From: Rhodoflexus caldus
Lineage (GTDB): Bacteria; Bacteroidota; Bacteroidia; Cytophagales; Thermoflexibacteraceae
Direction: 5' to 3'
Assembly: GCF_021206925.1 (NCBI RefSeq)
Contig: NZ_JAJPRF010000001.1
Location: forward strand, 1-64,000
Length of the DNA: 64,000 nt
A program made the translations under genes and the position numbers. The notes beneath the pieces were generated by a model. The model had not been told where the DNA came from and searched no databases. It worked only from the letters and a program-made list of their open reading frames with translations. This document shows, one piece after another, positions 16,831-24,495 of the stretch. Position 1 is the stretch's first letter. Each line of letters opens with the position of its first letter.

Positions 16831-16938
16831 GGGGGTTGTTTGAATAGGAAAATGTGATGTTTGTTTACAGAATAGATGCCTTGATTGGATCTGTTAAGCC
16901 AAACAGCGACTTTTGCTTCTGTATTTTCATACCATCTA

Positions 16939-18027
16939 TTACGGTTTCATGTAACCGTAACCGATGGCGGTTTTTGCGCCGATGCCGCGTTCTTGCAGAG
17001 CTTCTTTGAGAAAGTCCGAAACTACCGAAAGCATATCACCTCTTTTTGACCCTAACGTAATATGTGCATTTTCCATGCCTTTGTGCAAGCCTACCATAAA
17101 TTGGAAAGTGAGGTTTTCAACGGTGAGGAAAATGATGGGGTTCAATTTGTGATAGTCGGCAGGTGGTGCTTCGCCGTTGTAGTAGGGCTGATAATGGTTG
17201 TTCATTATATCTGCCTTGATGCAACCTTGCGGGCTGCGGGTGGGGTAGGCATCAAAGAAGATGACGCTGCCTTGCTCTGTTTTGTCAGACAGGATTTCAG
17301 GATTGACAGGATTTTTTTGGAAGTCTTCTTCGCTGTAATGTGTGCCGAATATTTTTTTGATGTTAGCTAAGTCTTCGTTTGTTTTGGCGTTTTCAAGGGC
17401 GTAATGGTGCGTGATGCCTTTAATAGCACTTGCCGGAATATACGGAAATCCGTAAACGTGATGCAGAGAGATAGAGGTTTCAAACACTGAACCGCTGCCC
17501 AAACCTACAGCTAATCGCCAATCGGGTTTAAATTGCAGATCATTTATTTGATTGTTGTCATACACTTTGGGCAATAAATTACCACCTGTGAGTTGTAATG
17601 CGTTGCGATGATGGCGAGTGATGAAGTTTTGATAATACTTTTTAACTGCTTCATCTTCACTGTCCCCAAAAGCAGTTTGACAATCTTCGCCTCGCTTTTT
17701 TAACATGCGATTTTCTATTTTAAAATTCGTATCGTCAAAAATCTTCTCCTTGTGAAGTTTGAGAGCGAAGTTTTCTAATATCAACTTTTTAGCCAATGCT
17801 TTTAATGAAAGAATAGTCCAGCTAGGTTTTCCCTTATATTTAGTTGCCTGAATTTCAAGCTCAAACTCGTCGCCTTTTTTAGGATTTAAATTTGTAGATT
17901 TCTTTTGCTGTAAGGTTGCATAGTTTATAAAAATATCCGGGCTTACATCTCTTGCAACAAGCCAACCATTCTTAGCATTGGTATCCCAACTGCTCACAGT
18001 AGCAAGTACTTTTTTCATTTCTGCCAT
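16939..18027 (-). CDS. cmr6: Type III-B subunit Cmr6 with an N-terminal OB/cold-shock-like domain
   Basis: Residues ~85-362 form the Cmr6 RAMP domain: RLAVGLGSGSVFETSISLHH, FPYIPASAIKGITHHYAL and a glycine-rich end GIGAKTAIGYGYMKP. Cmr6 caps the crRNA 3' side of the Cmr filament. The first ~75 residues are extra and resemble a cold-shock/S1-type OB fold: NGWLVARD as RNP1-like, DIFINYATL as RNP2-like, then a GDEFELEIQ strand. An added single-strand RNA-binding domain is a reasonable inference. Residues 239-247 (NPVNPEILS) are encoded by a repeat that recurs elsewhere in this operon and may be an in-frame insertion. The stop of cmr5 lies 2 bp upstream of this start. Confidence 0.93.
   Translation of the reverse strand: MAEMKKVLATVSSWDTNAKNGWLVARDVSPDIFINYATLQQKKSTNLNPKKGDEFELEIQATKYKGKPSWTILSLKALAKKLILENFALKLHKEKIFDDTNFKIENRMLKKRGEDCQTAFGDSEDEAVKKYYQNFITRHHRNALQLTGGNLLPKVYDNNQINDLQFKPDWRLAVGLGSGSVFETSISLHHVYGFPYIPASAIKGITHHYALENAKTNEDLANIKKIFGTHYSEEDFQKNPVNPEILSDKTEQGSVIFFDAYPTRSPQGCIKADIMNNHYQPYYNGEAPPADYHKLNPIIFLTVENLTFQFMVGLHKGMENAHITLGSKRGDMLSVVSDFLKEALQERGIGAKTAIGYGYMKP
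17287..17313 (-). repeat. GATTTCAGGATT-type interspersed repeat inside cmr6
   Basis: The plus strand reads GACAGGATTTCAGGATTGAC followed by AGGATT. The same ~26-bp unit occurs at 18555-18580, 18596-18621 (inverted), 19016-19041, 19048-19072 (inverted) and 22049-22075. Here it lies in frame in cmr6 and encodes NPVNPEILS. Confidence 0.8.
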
Positions 18028-18029
18028 AG

Positions 18030-18524
18030 TTATTCCGATTTAGCGAACCTACGCAACCAATTGAGCAAGGCTAATACTTCGGTGGTGAGTGCAATATGTT
18101 GTTTTGTATCTTCACATTGACCCACAAGAGTTTCCATTGCAGATTTCCTGAAATCATTAAGAGATTTTATCTTCCTCTCAACTTCTTGTTTTTCTGCCTC
18201 TGATAATTTTTTATCTTTATCTTTCTCTTTTTTCCGTATTTCTAAGGCTTCTTTAGGCTTTATTGGCATTTGAAGCGTGAAAAATGGATATTTATCACCT
18301 TGATTATTTCCCGTTAACCATTCAATAATCAAAAGGAAAACACTTTCGTAATCTGCTTTTGAATAGCAAAAAGCCATTGTATTGAGCAAACCATTGGTTT
18401 TGATGTAAGTGGGTACTTTATCAACCGATGTTGAAAATTTATCACTTCCTAAATCCTTCGCACATTCCCACGCAAATTTTGCTCGTGCCTGGGCGATGCT
18501 TTTCATGGTTGAGAGGTTTGACAT
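18030..18524 (-). CDS. cmr5: Type III-B small subunit Cmr5
   Basis: The 164-residue alpha-helical protein fits Cmr5, the small subunit that stacks along the belly of the Cmr complex. It has an N-terminal helix (MKSIAQARAKFAWECAKDL), the conserved YIKTNGLLNTMAFCYSK segment, and a C-terminal helix (TTEVLALLNWLRRFAKSE). A Lys/Glu-rich middle (about residues 95-120) is longer than usual. It lies immediately upstream of cmr6. A repeat-bounded GxxExxY gene separates it from cmr4. Confidence 0.92.
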   Translation of the reverse strand: MSNLSTMKSIAQARAKFAWECAKDLGSDKFSTSVDKVPTYIKTNGLLNTMAFCYSKADYESVFLLIIEWLTGNNQGDKYPFFTLQMPIKPKEALEIRKKEKDKDKKLSEAEKQEVERKIKSLNDFRKSAMETLVGQCEDTKQHIALTTEVLALLNWLRRFAKSE

Positions 18525-18554
18525 ATTGTTTTGAGTTTAAAGTTTTTTATTTCT

Positions 18555-18621
18555 GACAGGATTGCAGGATTAACAAGATAAATTTGAAATAAAAAAATCC
18601 TGTAAATCCTGAAATCCTGTC
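18555..18621. repeat. Inverted pair of the interspersed repeat, left border of the GxxExxY gene
   Basis: A forward copy (18555-18580) and an inverted copy (18596-18621, AATCCTGTAAATCCTGAAAT onward) face each other across 15 bp and could form a long hairpin. The inverted copy ends on the first base of the GxxExxY stop codon. As a stem followed by A/T runs it may also act as a terminator. Confidence 0.85.
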
Positions 18622-19001
18622 TAACTCGCTTTGGGTTTATACACCCGATACTTGCGTTTTACCTCTACCGACGAGCCGAAGTTTATCAGCAAGCCTATGT
18701 CAAGCCCTGTGCCTTTGAGGTAATTGACCAACTGCGTTTCGTGCAGCGGGTGTAGGTTCTCTACGGCTTTTAATTCTATAATCACTACGTAATTCACCAA
18801 CAAATCGGCATAATACTCACCTACCAACTGCTTTTCGTAATATACATCAATAGGGTATTGTTGATAGACTTCAAAACCATTGTTTTGTAACTCTATCTTT
18901 AAAGCGTTTTCATACACCTTTTCCAAAAAGCCCGCCCCCAATGTATTATGCACCTTGTAGGCACAGGCAATGATTTGTTTGGTGAGTTCTTCGTGCTGCA
19001 T
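18621..19001 (-). CDS. GxxExxY family protein (PD-(D/E)XK-like)
   Basis: The 126-residue protein belongs to the GxxExxY family (TIGR04256/PDDEXK_3). It has the name motif GAGFLEKVYENAL, then YYADLLVNYVVIIELKAVENL, where the Asp and the ExK pair give a compact PD-(D/E)XK nuclease signature, then HETQLVNYLKGTGLDIGLLINFG. The biological role is not established. Both borders carry inverted pairs of the same 26-bp repeat (18555-18621 and 19016-19072). The gene and its borders therefore look like one insertion unit placed between cmr4 and cmr5. It reads in the operon direction, so the operon may still be transcribed through it. Confidence 0.9.
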   Translation of the reverse strand: MQHEELTKQIIACAYKVHNTLGAGFLEKVYENALKIELQNNGFEVYQQYPIDVYYEKQLVGEYYADLLVNYVVIIELKAVENLHPLHETQLVNYLKGTGLDIGLLINFGSSVEVKRKYRVYKPKAS

Positions 19002-19015
19002 ACGTTATTGTTTTT

Positions 19016-19072
19016 GACAGGATTTCAAGATTTACAAGATTTCTTCTATCCTGTTAATCCTGAAATCCTGTC
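19016..19072. repeat. Inverted pair of the interspersed repeat, right border of the GxxExxY gene
   Basis: A forward copy at 19016-19041 and an inverted copy at 19048-19072 are separated by 6 bp. They mirror the pair on the other side of the GxxExxY gene. The inverted copy ends 2 bp before the cmr4 stop codon. Confidence 0.85.
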
Positions 19073-19074
19073 TG

Positions 19075-20058
19075 TTAAGTATTTACAAATTTAGTTCTCA
19101 CAATTCCTTTACCTAAGGTAGCGTTTCCGCCGATTTGTACGATAGACGGTAATTGTCCGAAAAACTCTTCTACCTGCGATGCCGTCATCTTTCCTTCTTT
19201 ATCTGAAAACTCATCCGAAAACATTACCAAAGAGTACATAACGCTCTCGGCGGGAAGATATTCTTCGCTGAACAATGCACTTTGCTGTACCGTACCTGTT
19301 TCGTTGTTGATTTTGGTGCGGGTAATCACTTCGGTAGCAAGGGTTACGAAGTCGCGGAAGTCGTTGTCGTCAAGGACTACGATGTCGGTTTTGATTTTTT
19401 CAGACCAATAACTTTGGTCATCGTTGAATAAGGTTTTTGAAAGCCAAATACCTAACTTATTTACTTCGTTATCAGAAGTAACAGGATTCACTTTTGAAAA
19501 AACAAATTCTTCTAATTGCATCTTTTGCCCTTGGCCAAAAAGAGCAGAGCCATTAGCCACCATTGCACCGTTAATTTCTTTGAAATCAAATTGCAAATCG
19601 GTCAATCCCAAATCCGAAATAAACTTCTTTATCACTCTCGGACAGGTAATCCACGCAAATACGCCGTACAAAGACTTGACGGGAAACAACAACAAGCGGG
19701 CATCGGTCAGGGCTAATGCTCCTGAGAATTGGGAATTGTCTTTGAATGCTTCTTTTAAATGGTCTTTCGCAGAGAAACGTTTTTTTACATCAATGCCTAA
19801 CTCTCCATCATCAAAGCCAAAAGCTTTGTTAATTTTGATTAGGTTATTTTTTGCTTTATCATCGTCTTTTTCAGACAAAACTAATTCACTCTCAAAAGCC
19901 TCTCTCAACGCACCTTTGAGCGAAGAGGCTTCTATCTTGGGGAAATTGGTGTGCCTTTCGCGTTGGATAGGCAAATCTACGATACCTAAATCTGAGCCGC
20001 TGCCTACGTGCAGGGGCGTTTCACAGATGAGGAATAAAGGCTTGGCATTTTTGTACAT
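19075..20058 (-). CDS. cmr4: Type III-B backbone subunit Cmr4
   Basis: The 327-residue RAMP protein starts MYKNAKPLFLICETPLHVGS and continues GIVDLPIQRERHTNFPKIEA and SSLKGALREAF, the typical Cmr4 opening. Asp28 in GIVDLPIQRE is at the position of the Cmr4 residue that cuts bound target RNA at 6-nt intervals. The C-terminal glycine-rich loop is IVQIGGNATLGKGIV. The subunit should form the repeated backbone of the Cmr filament and keep target RNase activity. A diverged copy of its 5' end lies at 20993-21037 at the start of the DUF6922-like gene. Confidence 0.95.
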   Translation of the reverse strand: MYKNAKPLFLICETPLHVGSGSDLGIVDLPIQRERHTNFPKIEASSLKGALREAFESELVLSEKDDDKAKNNLIKINKAFGFDDGELGIDVKKRFSAKDHLKEAFKDNSQFSGALALTDARLLLFPVKSLYGVFAWITCPRVIKKFISDLGLTDLQFDFKEINGAMVANGSALFGQGQKMQLEEFVFSKVNPVTSDNEVNKLGIWLSKTLFNDDQSYWSEKIKTDIVVLDDNDFRDFVTLATEVITRTKINNETGTVQQSALFSEEYLPAESVMYSLVMFSDEFSDKEGKMTASQVEEFFGQLPSIVQIGGNATLGKGIVRTKFVNT

Positions 20059-20076
20059 CGTGTTTTAAGATTTTAG
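20032..20076. repeat. cmr4 5'-end segment duplicated at 20993-21037
   Basis: Forty-five bases around the cmr4 start codon match 20993-21037 at 39 positions in the same orientation, by direct alignment. The two copies flank the AbiEii/DUF6922 module like a long direct repeat. Confidence 0.8.
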
Positions 20077-20712
20077 TTTATTCCAATACTTGATTTCGGT
20101 TTGAAAGTGCTTTGAGATTTGCAACAAGGAAACATTTTGTTGGGGTTTCAAATGTTGTATGTTCTCATCGGCTATGTCGTCTATGAAAATCAAAGCTCTT
20201 TGAAAAAGGGTTTTGCTTAGGTTTTTCTTTTTGACGGTAGTCATTTCAAACAATTCTTTGAGCGAAAAATGCTCTTTATTTAACACGTATAAATCGTAAT
20301 AATCACGAAACTTTGCTCTCAAAAATAAGGTATTCACTTTCATCACCGCCAAAACAGGCAATTCGGCGATGTACAGAAAATCAAATAAATGATTTCTGTT
20401 TTTAAGCTCCTCCCAACCATTGGCAAAAAAAGTCACTTTTACTCCATCTATCACAAAATCGGCTTGTTGCGGTGATAAATTCACGATTCTGATAGTTTCA
20501 AATTTGCCGCTGTTTTGTAAATTGTTTTGTATAGTCGTGGCTTGTAAATCGTTTTTCCAAGTAAAAAAATTAAGGTCTTCGCTATGACGACGCCCCAAAT
20601 AAACCGCCAATGCCGAACCGCCTACAAAAGTAAAATATTGCAGTAAGGGCATAGTGGCTAACCGGCGCAGCACTTTTTCGGTATCAGACAGTAAATTGTC
20701 TAATCCTTTCAT
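20065..20712 (-). CDS. AbiEii/AbiGii-type nucleotidyltransferase (toxin-like)
   Basis: The 215-residue protein (start chosen at 20712, MKGLDNLLSDTEKVL) has the nucleotidyltransferase motif FTFVGGSALAVYLGRRHSED, with a GGSALA turn and acidic residues in HSEDLNFF, then VKVTFF, AVMKVNTLFLRAKFRDYYDL and YVLNKEHFSL. This is the AbiEii (PF08843-like) fold. AbiE systems are abortive-infection toxin-antitoxin pairs in which AbiEii modifies nucleotides or RNA and AbiEi restrains it. The frame is open further upstream to 20895, but that part belongs to the overlapping partner gene. The pair is inserted between the DUF1016 gene and cmr4 in the operon direction. Confidence 0.85.
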   Translation of the reverse strand: MKGLDNLLSDTEKVLRRLATMPLLQYFTFVGGSALAVYLGRRHSEDLNFFTWKNDLQATTIQNNLQNSGKFETIRIVNLSPQQADFVIDGVKVTFFANGWEELKNRNHLFDFLYIAELPVLAVMKVNTLFLRAKFRDYYDLYVLNKEHFSLKELFEMTTVKKKNLSKTLFQRALIFIDDIADENIQHLKPQQNVSLLQISKHFQTEIKYWNKLKS

Positions 20713-21019
20713 AGCGACTGTATTTTTTTTGTAACGGCAAAATGTGCCTTTTCGGGTTTTGAATGTTGAAAAATATGGCTGCCAAATAGAAGTTGTGCCT
20801 GTAAATCCGCTCATCGGGCAGCATTTTTTCACGCCAAATCCTCTTGATTTCTTTGACGGAAAACATTTTGAACAAAGTTTGCAATTCCTCCACATCTCCC
20901 CACCGCAAAGCTTCCTCTATCAATACCTCGTCAGAAATTTCGGCATCGGGGGCATAGCTCCAAAATGCTCCGAGCTGGCGCAGGCGAGTGATGAATAAAG
21001 ACTTGGCGTTTTTGTACAT
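20684..21019 (-). CDS. DUF6922-like partner of the AbiEii protein (putative antitoxin)
   Basis: The 111-residue protein reads AFWSYAPDAEISDEVLIEEA, then LRWGDVEELQTLFKMFSVKE and KRIWREKMLPDERI, then FFNIQNPKRHI. This fits the small DUF6922 proteins found in front of AbiEii-like genes. The two frames overlap by 29 bp, as in many toxin-antitoxin pairs, so an antitoxin or regulatory role is inferred. The first residues (MYKNAKSLFITR) are nearly the same as the Cmr4 start (MYKNAKPLFLI). The DNA there is a 39/45 copy of the cmr4 start region, so this gene seems to have taken over the cmr4 translation start. Confidence 0.72.
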   Translation of the reverse strand: MYKNAKSLFITRLRQLGAFWSYAPDAEISDEVLIEEALRWGDVEELQTLFKMFSVKEIKRIWREKMLPDERIYRHNFYLAAIFFNIQNPKRHILPLQKKYSRYERIRQFTV

Positions 21020-21037
21020 CTTGTTTTATGGTTTTAA
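20993..21037. repeat. Second copy of the cmr4 5'-end segment
   Basis: This copy gives the DUF6922-like gene its start codon and first codons. Six of 45 positions differ from 20032-20076, so the duplication is not very recent. Confidence 0.8.
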
Positions 21038-22036
21038 ATGTTTGCTCTCGTTTTCAATCAATAATTTCTCCCTTTCCAATTCCATAATCAACTCATTTTC
21101 GGTAGGCAAGTACAATACGTATTTGGAAGCAAACAACTGCTTGCTTTCGCTCAAAACGGAATATTTTACAATCGTTTGGTCTTTGTGTGTGCAGAGAATT
21201 AGCCCAATGGTTGGGTTGTCGTCAGCGTTTTTGTATTTGTCCTCATACAAGCGGACGTACATATCCATTTGCCCGATGTCTTGGTGAGTGAGTTCGCCTA
21301 CTTTGAGGTCTATGAGTACAAAGCATTTCAAGATGTAGTTGTAAAAGACCAAATCAATATAAAAATGCTTGGTTTCGGTGCTGATGCGTTTTTGCCTGCC
21401 CACAAAGGCAAAGCCCTTACCCAATTCCAACAAAAACTCATTGAGTTTGTCCATCAATGCCTGCTCTAATTCGCTTTCCAAGTAGGTTTTGCTGTCTTTG
21501 AGTTGCAAGAACTCCAAAATGTATGGGTCTTTCAAAAATGTTTCGGGTTGTAAGTCTTTGGTTTTTTCCTGCATTTCTGCCTTTACTTCGTCTCGGTTTT
21601 GGGACGAAAGCAGGCGTTCGTAATACAAAGACTTGATTTGCCTGTCCAAAGCCCTTGTACTCCAATGGTTGGCAATGCTTTCTTGGATATAAAACTCTCT
21701 TGCTTTTTCGTTTTCTACTCTTAACAAAGTTCTATAATGCGTCCAACTTAATTCTGAACGCACTGCGTTCAAAATCGGGAAAGTGAGGTAAAACTGTTTG
21801 CAGTAAAGCAAATTACGTTCGCTGTAAGCATTGCCAAATTCGTCTGAAAGTTTATCAGCAAGATGTTTGATAAGGTTTTTGCCATACTCAGCTCTGTTTT
21901 TTCCCTGCTGCTCGTCTTCTACTATGTACCGCCCTATCAGCCAATAGGCTTCCAACATTGCCACATTGACCGTAGCAACTACCTTCTGCCTTGCCTCCAA
22001 AATCGTGAGGCGGATATTTTGATAGAGCGTTTCCAT
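21026..22036 (-). CDS. DUF1016 (YhcG-type) PD-(D/E)XK nuclease
   Basis: The 336-residue protein has the DUF1016 N-terminal helical domain (MLEAYWLIGRYIVEDEQQG, YGKNLIKHLADKLSDEFG) and the C-terminal PD-(D/E)XK nuclease domain. Catalytic elements are HFYIDLVFYNYILKCFVLIDLKVGEL (Asp in YIDL, Asp-x-Lys in IDLK). Members resemble Holliday-junction or restriction-type nucleases and often travel with restriction and defence genes; the specific role is not known. The gene lies 6 bp from the DUF6922-like start on one side and 9 bp from the CARF gene on the other, so it is part of the same transcript. It is not a normal Cmr component and is probably an insertion. Confidence 0.88.
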   Translation of the reverse strand: METLYQNIRLTILEARQKVVATVNVAMLEAYWLIGRYIVEDEQQGKNRAEYGKNLIKHLADKLSDEFGNAYSERNLLYCKQFYLTFPILNAVRSELSWTHYRTLLRVENEKAREFYIQESIANHWSTRALDRQIKSLYYERLLSSQNRDEVKAEMQEKTKDLQPETFLKDPYILEFLQLKDSKTYLESELEQALMDKLNEFLLELGKGFAFVGRQKRISTETKHFYIDLVFYNYILKCFVLIDLKVGELTHQDIGQMDMYVRLYEDKYKNADDNPTIGLILCTHKDQTIVKYSVLSESKQLFASKYVLYLPTENELIMELEREKLLIENESKHLKP

Positions 22037-22045
22037 TTTGTGTTT

Positions 22046-23446
22046 TTAGGACAGGATTTCAGGATTTACAGGGTTTTGGTTTTGTTGTGTTGAAAATATT
22101 TCACATACATTCCCAATGGTTGAACGCATAAACTCTTGGTATCTGAGCCTATTTCTGTTTCCGTCAATGACGTTCTGATTGATTGTCATTTTCTTTATCT
22201 TGAAAACAATGTTAGGAAATTCAGTTATAACTTCTTGATTTAGCACACTTTGGCACCAATTCAATTCATTCTGAAACGGGTTACTTTGAAACTCATATAA
22301 GATTATCCAAAACTCTTGCAAACTAACTTGTGGATTTAATTGATTGATAAGCCCAATGTTTTTACGTATTTTACTACGCATTGCTTTCGCACTTATTGAA
22401 GATGGTTTTATTTCAACGGCAATAACATTGTTATTTCCTTCATTAGAAAACCACAAGTCGGCATCTTCTAAATCTCTGTCAGGTTCATCTGAAAGTTTGA
22501 AACCAAGTATAACATTTGTATAACCGTGAGGCTTGTTTGCAACAAAGTATTCATAAAGTTTGTATTCAACGAAGTAACCCATTGTGGTTTTTTCAAAAGG
22601 TAAATCGTCAGAATTGAGTTTGTTTTTTATCAATTCACCAATTACTGAGAGTTCTGCGGGGATATTTTCAGACTTCAAAAGTCCTAATTTGAACATTTGA
22701 TTTACAATAGCCTGATGATTAACACTCAATAAGTTAGGGTTTATGATAAAATTCACGTAGTTCTCAATGTAGCCCAAGTCAAAATTTATCGGCAAATTCC
22801 CCACCGTTACCAATTCATTGGTTTTATCCAATTCGGTTTCGTTGTAGATGTACTTCAAAGGAATTTCTTTGAGTTGTCCGTAGAGCGTGAGGATAGGGAT
22901 AATTGCCTTATAGCCTCCCGTGATGTTGAGAATGTCGTTTTTACTTAATTTGAGTTTGTCTAACTGTTCAATCAAGTTCATAAAACCTTTTTCGTAGTTG
23001 CCTTTGCTATCTACTCGCAGGTCTTTGATGATGTGGGTGTCGTTGTGTGCAAAATGAACCGTTATTTTCTGTGTTACTGACTTATAATTTTCAAACCACT
23101 CCTTAATCAACTCACAAGCCAATACACTCAATACCGTATCAGTCGCCATGAGATACACTTCTGTATCTACTTGTGCTTCTTCCGTTATCTTGAGAATGGA
23201 TTTTATTTCGGCGGATGCATTGTCATCTGATTTTATGTTATTAAAAACGTTTTTACGTAAGCCATTTTTTTGGCTTAAACCTTTTGTTCCTTCAATGCAC
23301 TCTATTACCTGATTATCATTCCACTTATCAAAAGAATGATTTGCCTTATCAAGCGTATCATAATCATTTTTAAAAGTTGCATTTTTCCCGTCTTTAAAAA
23401 AATTGCTAAAAATGGAAGTCCCGACAGTGGTGATTATTTTTTTCAT
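22046..23446 (-). CDS. Second CARF effector with a C-terminal PD-(D/E)XK domain
   Basis: The 466-residue protein begins MKKIITTVGTSIFSNFF, typical of Csm6/Csx1-like CARF domains of the APE2256 type (TIGR02619-like). It has a second CARF motif LNITGGYKAIIPI at about residues 173-185. About 80 residues of linker helices follow. Then LEDADLWFSNEGNNNVIAVEIKPSS (about 326-350) gives the Asp and the Glu345-x-Lys347 pair of a PD-(D/E)XK nuclease. No HEPN R-x4-6-H motif was seen. It should be a cyclic-oligoadenylate-activated nuclease, different in order and sequence from the Card1-like protein of the same operon. The last nine residues (NPVNPEILS) and the stop context come from the interspersed repeat. 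Its 5' end overlaps cmr3 by 4 bp. Confidence 0.8.
   Translation of the reverse strand: MKKIITTVGTSIFSNFFKDGKNATFKNDYDTLDKANHSFDKWNDNQVIECIEGTKGLSQKNGLRKNVFNNIKSDDNASAEIKSILKITEEAQVDTEVYLMATDTVLSVLACELIKEWFENYKSVTQKITVHFAHNDTHIIKDLRVDSKGNYEKGFMNLIEQLDKLKLSKNDILNITGGYKAIIPILTLYGQLKEIPLKYIYNETELDKTNELVTVGNLPINFDLGYIENYVNFIINPNLLSVNHQAIVNQMFKLGLLKSENIPAELSVIGELIKNKLNSDDLPFEKTTMGYFVEYKLYEYFVANKPHGYTNVILGFKLSDEPDRDLEDADLWFSNEGNNNVIAVEIKPSSISAKAMRSKIRKNIGLINQLNPQVSLQEFWIILYEFQSNPFQNELNWCQSVLNQEVITEFPNIVFKIKKMTINQNVIDGNRNRLRYQEFMRSTIGNVCEIFSTQQNQNPVNPEILS
22049..22075 (-). repeat. Interspersed repeat forming the 3' end of the CARF gene
   Basis: This copy of the GACAGGATTTCAGGATTTAC unit supplies the last nine sense codons (NPVNPEILS) just before the stop at 22046. 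The same nine residues occur inside Cmr6. Confidence 0.8.
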
Positions 23447-24495
23447 TTTCCGATATAAGTTATGCCAAAACCTTCTTTGGCGGTATCACATTCTGATATG
23501 GATTTAAAATGAAATGCTTGGATAGCATCTTGATACGTACCCTCTAAAATTTCAAAATAATACACCGAACCCGCAGGAACATATTTATTCATTTCTTTGG
23601 GTTGTGCATTTTTTACATCAAAGCCACCTAATGAAATAGGTTTGCCCAAAGCGGTAGTCAATAATTTTACTTTTAAGATGCTTTCAGGAAAAGTGCCTAT
23701 GAGCGTATTTTCGTCAATCCAATTGGGCAGCCAACCTTTTTTGAAAAGGGCGGGGGTTGTCAGACATACCCGAAAGATATTATTTTCTATTGTTTGCGGG
23801 TAGTCAATAAAACCATTTTCAGGAATTGCTACATTTTCCAATTCATAAGAAAAGGTCTTACCCTCACCGCCAATTTTTGAAATGTATTTTTCGGGCAGTT
23901 CTAAGTTTTCAAACAGAACTACAATCTTAACACCATCTTGCAAACGTAACATTTCCACCCTATACAGTCGCCCTTCTTCCGTTGCTCTGCTTGCCTTGTT
24001 TCGTGCAATGCCTACTTTAGGCTCTTTGAATAAAAATCCTTTCTCTTTCACAGAAAGTTGTCCGATGTGTTGCTTTGCTAAAATATTTGTAAAATTTGCT
24101 ATATTTGTCAATCCTTCTATTCCTTCTGATAAAGCATTGGCAACGAGCACCTTATCAGTTTTGCAAGAACTGTAAGTTGGTTTGTTTTCTAACTTCAAAA
24201 AAGCAAATGTGTTGGTGTCTTTTTCTTTCACCACATCCTTCGGGACAGGCAAATAAACATCACCGTCTATTTGAAGGTAAATACCTTTTATCTTGAAGTC
24301 TTTGGTAAGTTCGTCTAATGCTTGTTTTGTCAAATCAAGTTTGCCATTATATGCAAAAAACAAAGTCCTCAACGCCCCATAAATCACACTAGGCGAGGGC
24401 GGAAACACACTGTCAGCCCAAGACTCATCTCCCATATCAAAAGGTTTTCCGTCCCGAAAAAAGAAAGTATCCAAAGGATTGATGCGTATAATCAT
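23443..24495 (-). CDS. cmr3: Type III-B subunit Cmr3
   Basis: The 350-residue RAMP protein opens with the signature Cmr3 sequence MIIRINPLDTFFFRDGKPFD, then SWADSVFPPSPSVIYGALRT. Later elements are PKVGIARNKASRATEEGRLY and a C-terminal loop KEGFGITYIGK. Cmr3 (Cas5-like) holds the crRNA 5' tag and docks to Cas10 (Cmr2). It lies 5 bp downstream of cmr2 and overlaps the CARF gene by 4 bp, as expected for a tight operon. Length and motifs are normal. Confidence 0.95.
   Translation of the reverse strand: MIIRINPLDTFFFRDGKPFDMGDESWADSVFPPSPSVIYGALRTLFFAYNGKLDLTKQALDELTKDFKIKGIYLQIDGDVYLPVPKDVVKEKDTNTFAFLKLENKPTYSSCKTDKVLVANALSEGIEGLTNIANFTNILAKQHIGQLSVKEKGFLFKEPKVGIARNKASRATEEGRLYRVEMLRLQDGVKIVVLFENLELPEKYISKIGGEGKTFSYELENVAIPENGFIDYPQTIENNIFRVCLTTPALFKKGWLPNWIDENTLIGTFPESILKVKLLTTALGKPISLGGFDVKNAQPKEMNKYVPAGSVYYFEILEGTYQDAIQAFHFKSISECDTAKEGFGITYIGK

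Follow-up and report, generated by a model that had tools for sequence, protein, structure and literature searches.

A GxxExxY gene with cognate palindromic arms in the cmr4-cmr5 spacer of Rhodoflexus caldus resembles a compact mobile unit

An intact GxxExxY gene was identified between cmr4 and cmr5 in the Cmr (type III) CRISPR operon of Rhodoflexus caldus. It is located in a 518-bp block (positions 18555-19072 of the window, i.e., the whole stretch of 64,000 nucleotides that was analysed) with a pair of palindromic ATCCTG repeats of ~25 bp at each border. The block is best explained as a copy of a compact selfish unit that is widespread, has cognate palindromic arms and would be spread by an arm-directed nuclease (rough probability, 0.55).

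Structure of the unit in the window

The operon is encoded on the minus strand in the order cas6, cmr1, cmr2, cmr3, CARF gene, yhcG, DUF6922/AbiEii-type cassette, cmr4, GxxExxY, cmr5, cmr6 and card1, in which the names cas6, cmr2 and DUF6922 are provisional. The features of the unit and its surroundings are as follows.

17288..17312 (-): half-repeat read in frame as part of cmr6 (peptide NPVNPEILS), with a counterpart at this position in genomes G557 and G397
18030..18524 (-): cmr5, a host gene located downstream of the unit
18555..18579 (-): 3' border hairpin, outer arm; identical in G397 (25/25); the border folds locally as an RNA hairpin of -31.7 kcal/mol
18597..18621 (+): inner arm of the 3' border hairpin, abutting the GxxExxY stop codon; 25/25 identical in G397, a genome of the same genus
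18621..19001 (-): GxxExxY gene, 126 aa (P0001); predicted PD-(D/E)XK nuclease fold; motifs D66-E76-x-K78 and G24-F-L-E-K-x-Y30
19016..19040 (-): inner arm of the 5' border hairpin; loop of 7 nt; local RNA hairpin of -33.6 kcal/mol
19048..19072 (+): 5' border hairpin (5' in terms of the gene strand), outer arm, separated from the cmr4 stop by 2 bp
19075..20058 (-): cmr4 (RAMP), a host gene transcribed ahead of the unit
22050..22074 (-): half-repeat at the C-terminus of a CARF-like ORF, immediately ahead of the yhcG start; also at this position in G557

The sequence-only reading had described a facing repeat pair at each border, and both pairs are present (18555-18579(-)/18597-18621(+) and 19016-19040(-)/19048-19072(+)), each consisting of two facing copies of the repeat ATCCTGTNAATCCTGAAATCCTGTC. 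The same reading left only a few bases to both neighbours, which is correct for cmr4 (2 bp between the repeat end at 19072 and the cmr4 stop at 19075) and incorrect for cmr5 (30 bp between 18555 and the cmr5 start at 18524). Terminal inverted repeats, as expected of an insertion sequence or transposon, are present on the window unit and likewise on relatives. Six copies of the repeat (≤3 mismatches) occur in the window, compared with none in each of 100 shuffles. A search of the whole genome (3,963,705 bases, 40 contigs, ≤3 mismatches) found the same six copies and no others, all within 4.8 kb, and the GxxExxY gene is single-copy in this genome.

Each border alone folds as a hairpin, and the fold of the whole unit pairs both borders in one long stem. 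This stem favours an RNA-level parasite similar to the 23S rRNA intervening sequence (IVS), in which the arms would pair in the operon mRNA and the looped GxxExxY cistron would be trimmed by a host RNase or by the nuclease itself. The operon would then stay functional, and the unit would spread via ordinary transfer and recombination without cutting at the arms. The arms are, however, equally able to form DNA hairpins, and an Rfam scan of positions 16900-23600, which gave no match, also counts against this explanation.

The half copies in cmr6 and in the CARF gene are both in frame, are both translated as NPVNPEILS and both have counterparts in the corresponding positions of G557. Domestication of repeat insertions is a possible origin. 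Rickettsia palindromic elements are palindromic repeats inserted in frame in protein genes; the in-frame repeat in cmr6 is similar to these, but it is a half palindrome and is tied to a nuclease gene unit.

A DUF6922-like and AbiEii-like gene pair is located at 20065-21019, just upstream of cmr4. The first ~27 nt of cmr4 (ATGTACAAAAAYGCCAAGYCTTTATTC) occur again at the far end of this pair, while in genomes G475 and G490 the ATGTACAAAAACGC of cmr4 comes immediately after yhcG. Because yhcG directly adjoins cmr4 sequence in these two genomes, the cassette appears to have been inserted with the start of cmr4 being duplicated.

The GxxExxY protein

P0001 is a full member of the GxxExxY family, with a score of 140.6 bits against the TIGR04256 profile (cut-off, 35). 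PF13366 (PDDEXK_3; 142.7 bits) was the sole profile above its gathering score. E76 is invariant in 79 sequences, and D66 and K78 are each conserved in at least 90% of them; two of the 80 proteins (L079 and L083) were left out of alignment A1 owing to internal stops. An AlphaFold2 model generated with 79 sequences has a pLDDT of 94.6 and a pTM of 0.87. Foldseek gave no match to this model at E ≤ 0.001, and its best matches were weak and spread across the PD-(D/E)XK superfamily, including SSO0001 (which we take to be a Cas4), an archaeal splicing endonuclease, lambda-type exonucleases and Hjc Holliday-junction resolvases. A second structure aligner gave Z scores of 9.2 for SSO0001 and 6.8 for Hjc. 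A sequence search found no solved structure of the GxxExxY family. The nuclease-like core suggested earlier agrees with the PD-(D/E)XK fold predicted from profile and model, which supports a PD-(D/E)XK nuclease whose substrate could be a DNA junction, a DNA duplex or RNA, all being compatible with the model. The profile search of P0001 found no HUH/Y1 transposase domain, and the product does not match the four-helix-bundle S23 protein in profile or model.

Flanking arms across the family

GxxExxY loci were fetched as the best 80 of 567 candidates, ranked by likeness to P0001, so that the clade of the window is over-sampled. The combination of gene and repeat borders, for which other loci were to be searched, recurs in the family. 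An exact 10-mer common to both 150-bp flanks (inverted or direct) was present in 60 of 81 loci including the window, compared with 9.3% of 1238 control placements at other spots within the same loci; the remaining 21 loci have no flank 10-mer in common. When only inverted 10-mers were counted, 45 of 81 loci and 50 of 1238 controls were positive. An alternative flank score, from which L049 was left out (short flank), had a median of 22 for matched flanks, compared with 11 in 524 random segments; the 99% level was exceeded by 41 of 80 loci. The terminus AATAGAACGCGGAT...ATCCGCGTTCTATT (≤3 mismatches per end) was found in 22 of 80 loci, with hosts including Bacteroidota, Chloroflexota, Geobacteraceae and Ignavibacteriota. 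Among 20 whole-genome GxxExxY loci that partly overlap the 80 (L120, L123, L135 and fragments L143-L146 left out), 12 carried an inverted 10-mer (control, 26/292).

Arm types were assigned by author-defined rules written after inspection of a first tree. Under these rules, ATCCTG-type arms (17 loci) require one change on the 81-row protein tree (support 96/74), compared with a shuffled mean of 14.9 and 0 of 500 shuffles as low. Their hosts belong to at least seven phyla, with Bacteroidota, Chloroflexota, Acidobacteriota, Planctomycetota, Bacillota, Pseudomonadota and candidate phyla represented. The AATAGAACGC-type arms (21 loci) require 10 changes (shuffled, 17.6) and other ATCNGNG-type arms (22 loci) require 11 (shuffled, 18.1), with no arm type assigned to 21 of the 81 rows. 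Host phylum requires 32 changes on the protein tree (minimum, 15; shuffled, 45.3). The arms are cognate to the protein clade, and the arm type follows the protein tree and not the host. For an RNA-level parasite, this tracking would need protein recognition or long co-inheritance and not pairing alone.

Inverted arms were also found at 14 of 30 genes of TIGR02436, presumably the 23S IVS protein family (control, 16/450), which adds to the case for an RNA-level parasite; the arm units differ from those of GxxExxY genes. The short iterated arm units of these four-helix-bundle genes (L154-L183) vary from locus to locus, even within one genome. YhcG genes, largely from the same genomes, were tried as a further arm-bearing family and ruled out, with arms in 5 of 30 (control, 29/377; p 0.09).

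GxxExxY paralogues within one genome are ~80-84% identical, and their common sequence comprises the gene with little beyond the borders. Near-identical recent copies were not found in pairs at separate sites, and no fresh insertion was caught among the loci compared. Target-site duplication was not seen at any junction looked at, in comparisons with relatives that are too diverged to be decisive. GxxExxY matches were absent from 50,697 phage records and present in only 8 of 72,556 plasmids, and a scan of IMG/VR viruses with P0001 found no relative. In one open-access literature collection, GxxExxY was found in passing mentions only, with no functional study of the family and no mention of the repeat sequence words. 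Relative to that collection, the cognate arms are an addition to the knowledge of the GxxExxY family (TIGR04256/PF13366).

Genomic context

Both neighbours lie within 800 bp in 71 of the 80 loci, the other nine being left out for lack of a neighbour on one side. The gene is co-directional with both neighbours in 48 of these, opposite to both in 7 and mixed in 9 and 7. The units behave as operon members. For an RNA-level parasite, supporting points are that, of the 55 loci with tandem neighbours, 48 have the gene in the same direction as these and that the units fill short operon spacers. Per neighbour, however, co-directionality (59/75 and 60/76) is not above the background of adjacent pairs in these loci, of which 75% are on the same strand, and the orientation of GxxExxY is therefore not special. 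On the evidence of folding, arms and orientation, an RNA-level parasite is considered rather unlikely.

Cas homologues were found within 1.5 kb at 5 of 80 loci. These belong to the ATCCTG-arm set and its unassigned sisters (5/24, compared with 0/56 elsewhere; p 0.0018). The unit is located between csm5 and card1 in L024 and between cas4 and cas1 in L026, L035 and L045, whereas L028 adjoins cas1 and cas4; with the window, six units are embedded in CRISPR loci. The cas4/cas1-associated genes (L026, L035, L045 and L028) are not sisters on the tree. In L030, the unit separates the coupler/methylase part of a Type ISP restriction-modification locus from the C-terminal specificity part, so that the gene looks split. 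An accessory gene of CRISPR-Cas or other defence operons, i.e., a Cas4-like nuclease kept for its function with arms as expression signals, would account for the Cas-adjacent loci, the position of L030 and the top Foldseek match to SSO0001. It would not account for the 75 of 80 loci that have no Cas neighbour in the search used, whose contexts include sugar epimerases, tRNA synthetases and transporters, or for the other Cmr loci, which have no GxxExxY gene. The spread of the weak Foldseek matches over the superfamily also argues against this explanation, which is judged improbable.

Age of the window copy and empty sites

Searching 390 genomes of the order for cmr4 gave 14 positive genomes, and no GxxExxY match was found at the Cmr locus of the 13 other than that of the window. 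Empty sites in relatives, proposed as a check on mobility, are thus present at these Cmr loci, and also at a Spirosomaceae hot spot. In the three closest Cmr loci (L147-L149), cmr4 is joined to cmr5 over about 23-31 bp, as measured between alignment edges. G557 has both half copies at the same places without the unit, and the half copies are therefore older than, or independent of, the window unit. No repeat copies were found anywhere in the Cmr locus of G475 and G490.

The contig of G397 begins at the last GxxExxY codons and continues through the 3' border hairpin. Both arms of this border are identical to those of the window (25/25 and 25/25), whereas the loop is changed and 27 of the adjoining 40 alignment columns agree. 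For the half copy in cmr6, 22 of 25 positions are the same. Since the 3' border is common to the two genomes, the unit is at least as old as these two species. The arms of the window unit are, from this comparison, constrained or homogenised.

A hot spot in Spirosomaceae

DNA of the Spirosoma arboris locus matched 198 of 200 Spirosomaceae genomes. The unit at this site is located between genes whose peptides are putatively aminotransferase-like and carbamoyltransferase-like. Among 37 hot-spot loci (three places counted twice), 17 contain GxxExxY sequence, including fragments, and the others are empty or carry other inserts, some with arm remnants. Of 18 further loci, 15 are empty, one has a remnant and two, including G887, are filled. 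Other inserts fill the same operon spacer in L193, L196, L202 and L204, and the new insert of L193 has arm remnants on both sides. Decayed units (L198, L203 and L322) consist of gene fragments with arms that are still recognisable, which suggests loss via erosion and not clean excision.

In 15 hot-spot loci (13 full and two remnants), the duplex energy was -50.7 for own and -38.2 for foreign arm partners (permutation p 5e-5), and the own partner was top-ranked by energy in only 5 of 15. The 13 full genes form one clade (99/98), and their distances track those of the downstream gene (Mantel r 0.60, p 2e-4), so some of the inheritance is vertical. An ordinary operon gene that is inherited vertically and has terminator-like hairpins would agree with this clade and with the 3' border common to two species of the genus of the window. 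The patchy presence with empty relatives and the mixing of host phyla on the protein tree argue against it. As a full account it is contradicted by G675 and G887, in which the flanking genes are 89-90% identical but the proteins of the units at the one site are 61% identical and the arms differ (CGCAATGG and CGCAGAG units, respectively). Purely vertical inheritance is therefore highly improbable. Turnover of the arms in situ at one old insertion was also rejected as the only account of the hot spot because G675 and G887 carry different units at the same site. The hot spot, as far as sequence comparison can tell, shows that entire units, the gene along with its arms, were gained or replaced in a single operon spacer.

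Solo repeats

The number of solo repeats is independent of the resident gene. G371 has 46 pattern matches and no GxxExxY gene, G606 has 25 with only a GxxExxY remnant, and the same-genus genome G464 has 10 and no gene. G771 has no pattern match and 10 GxxExxY matches, including fragments. Long intergenic solo hairpins of CAGGATNNN units, some nested inside another hairpin, are located in G371 (L012-L023) and G606 (L222). One solo hairpin of G371 is just upstream of a gltD-like gene; at this position the same-genus genomes G663 and G574 have no insert, and that of G606 is another hairpin.

The gene might merely insert into any pre-existing hairpin, with generic genomic hairpins as landing sites. 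Hairpins without the gene are common, the gltD-like site differs between G371 and G606, and the arms of TIGR02436 genes vary among loci, as would be expected of such sites. This explanation is nevertheless disfavoured by the match of arm type to protein clade, which extends over at least seven phyla, and the genome of the window offers no other such repeats; it is held to be quite improbable. The concern that the repeats might surround many unrelated genes without a link to GxxExxY is half borne out: solo repeats are common in genomes that have no GxxExxY gene, and TIGR02436 genes form a second family with hairpin arms, of other sequence.

Comparison with known elements

The RAYT/REP unit is the closest in kind to the GxxExxY unit. 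In Nunvar et al. (2010; PMC2817692), it is described as a small gene with two inverted palindromic repeats that follow the protein, with solo repeats elsewhere and, in some RAYT genomes, repeats near the gene only. The GxxExxY unit has the same arrangement of gene and two inverted palindromic repeats, protein-linked repeats and solo repeats elsewhere, and the window genome has repeats near the gene only. The GxxExxY protein, however, is a predicted PD-(D/E)XK protein (PF13366) and not a Y1/HUH transposase, the arms are iterated 8-10-nt units, and the solo repeat number has no link to the resident gene. Inverted palindromic flanks and co-inheritance of repeat and protein are thus found, whereas an HUH/Y1 gene and a relation of repeat number to gene presence are not. 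Because the protein is not of the Y1/HUH type, the GxxExxY unit is not a RAYT/REP unit.

The 23S rRNA intervening sequence with the S23 ORF is called a selfish genetic element and is located in helix 45 of precursor 23S rRNA (PMC4990558). On that description, the two share a size of a few hundred bp and one small ORF, but the GxxExxY unit is in a protein operon (cmr4/cmr5) and not in an rRNA gene, and its protein is a different one.

In the favoured explanation, the PD-(D/E)XK protein would recognise its own arms, as duplex, extruded hairpin or cruciform, and would cut at them. Host repair would then copy the unit, sometimes the arms alone, into new spacers. The mode would be like that of the RAYT/REP unit, with the PD-(D/E)XK nuclease replacing the HUH transposase. 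The compact mobile unit proposed by the sequence-only reading is supported by its anatomy, its fit to evolutionary behaviour and its cognate arms, with the lack of a visible target duplication against it; movement by the unit's own protein is what we infer from these sequence data.

Significance

GxxExxY genes recur in many bacterial genomes, and their annotation rests on a motif only. If each gene is accompanied by cognate arms, which is the case at most of the loci studied, the family gains a testable role as the arm-specific nuclease of a minimal selfish unit, and a large set of unexplained operon-spacer hairpins gains a possible source. A broader and more tentative proposal is that GxxExxY units could form a phylum-crossing, palindrome-bounded selfish class, independent of HUH and DDE transposases and driven by a small PD-(D/E)XK nuclease to which the iterated-unit hairpins of the unit serve as recognition sites. 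Such units would favour operon spacers, and one clade would favour CRISPR-Cas operons. The window copy is an example of a unit inside a type III CRISPR operon, with relatives of the same arm type in other CRISPR operons.
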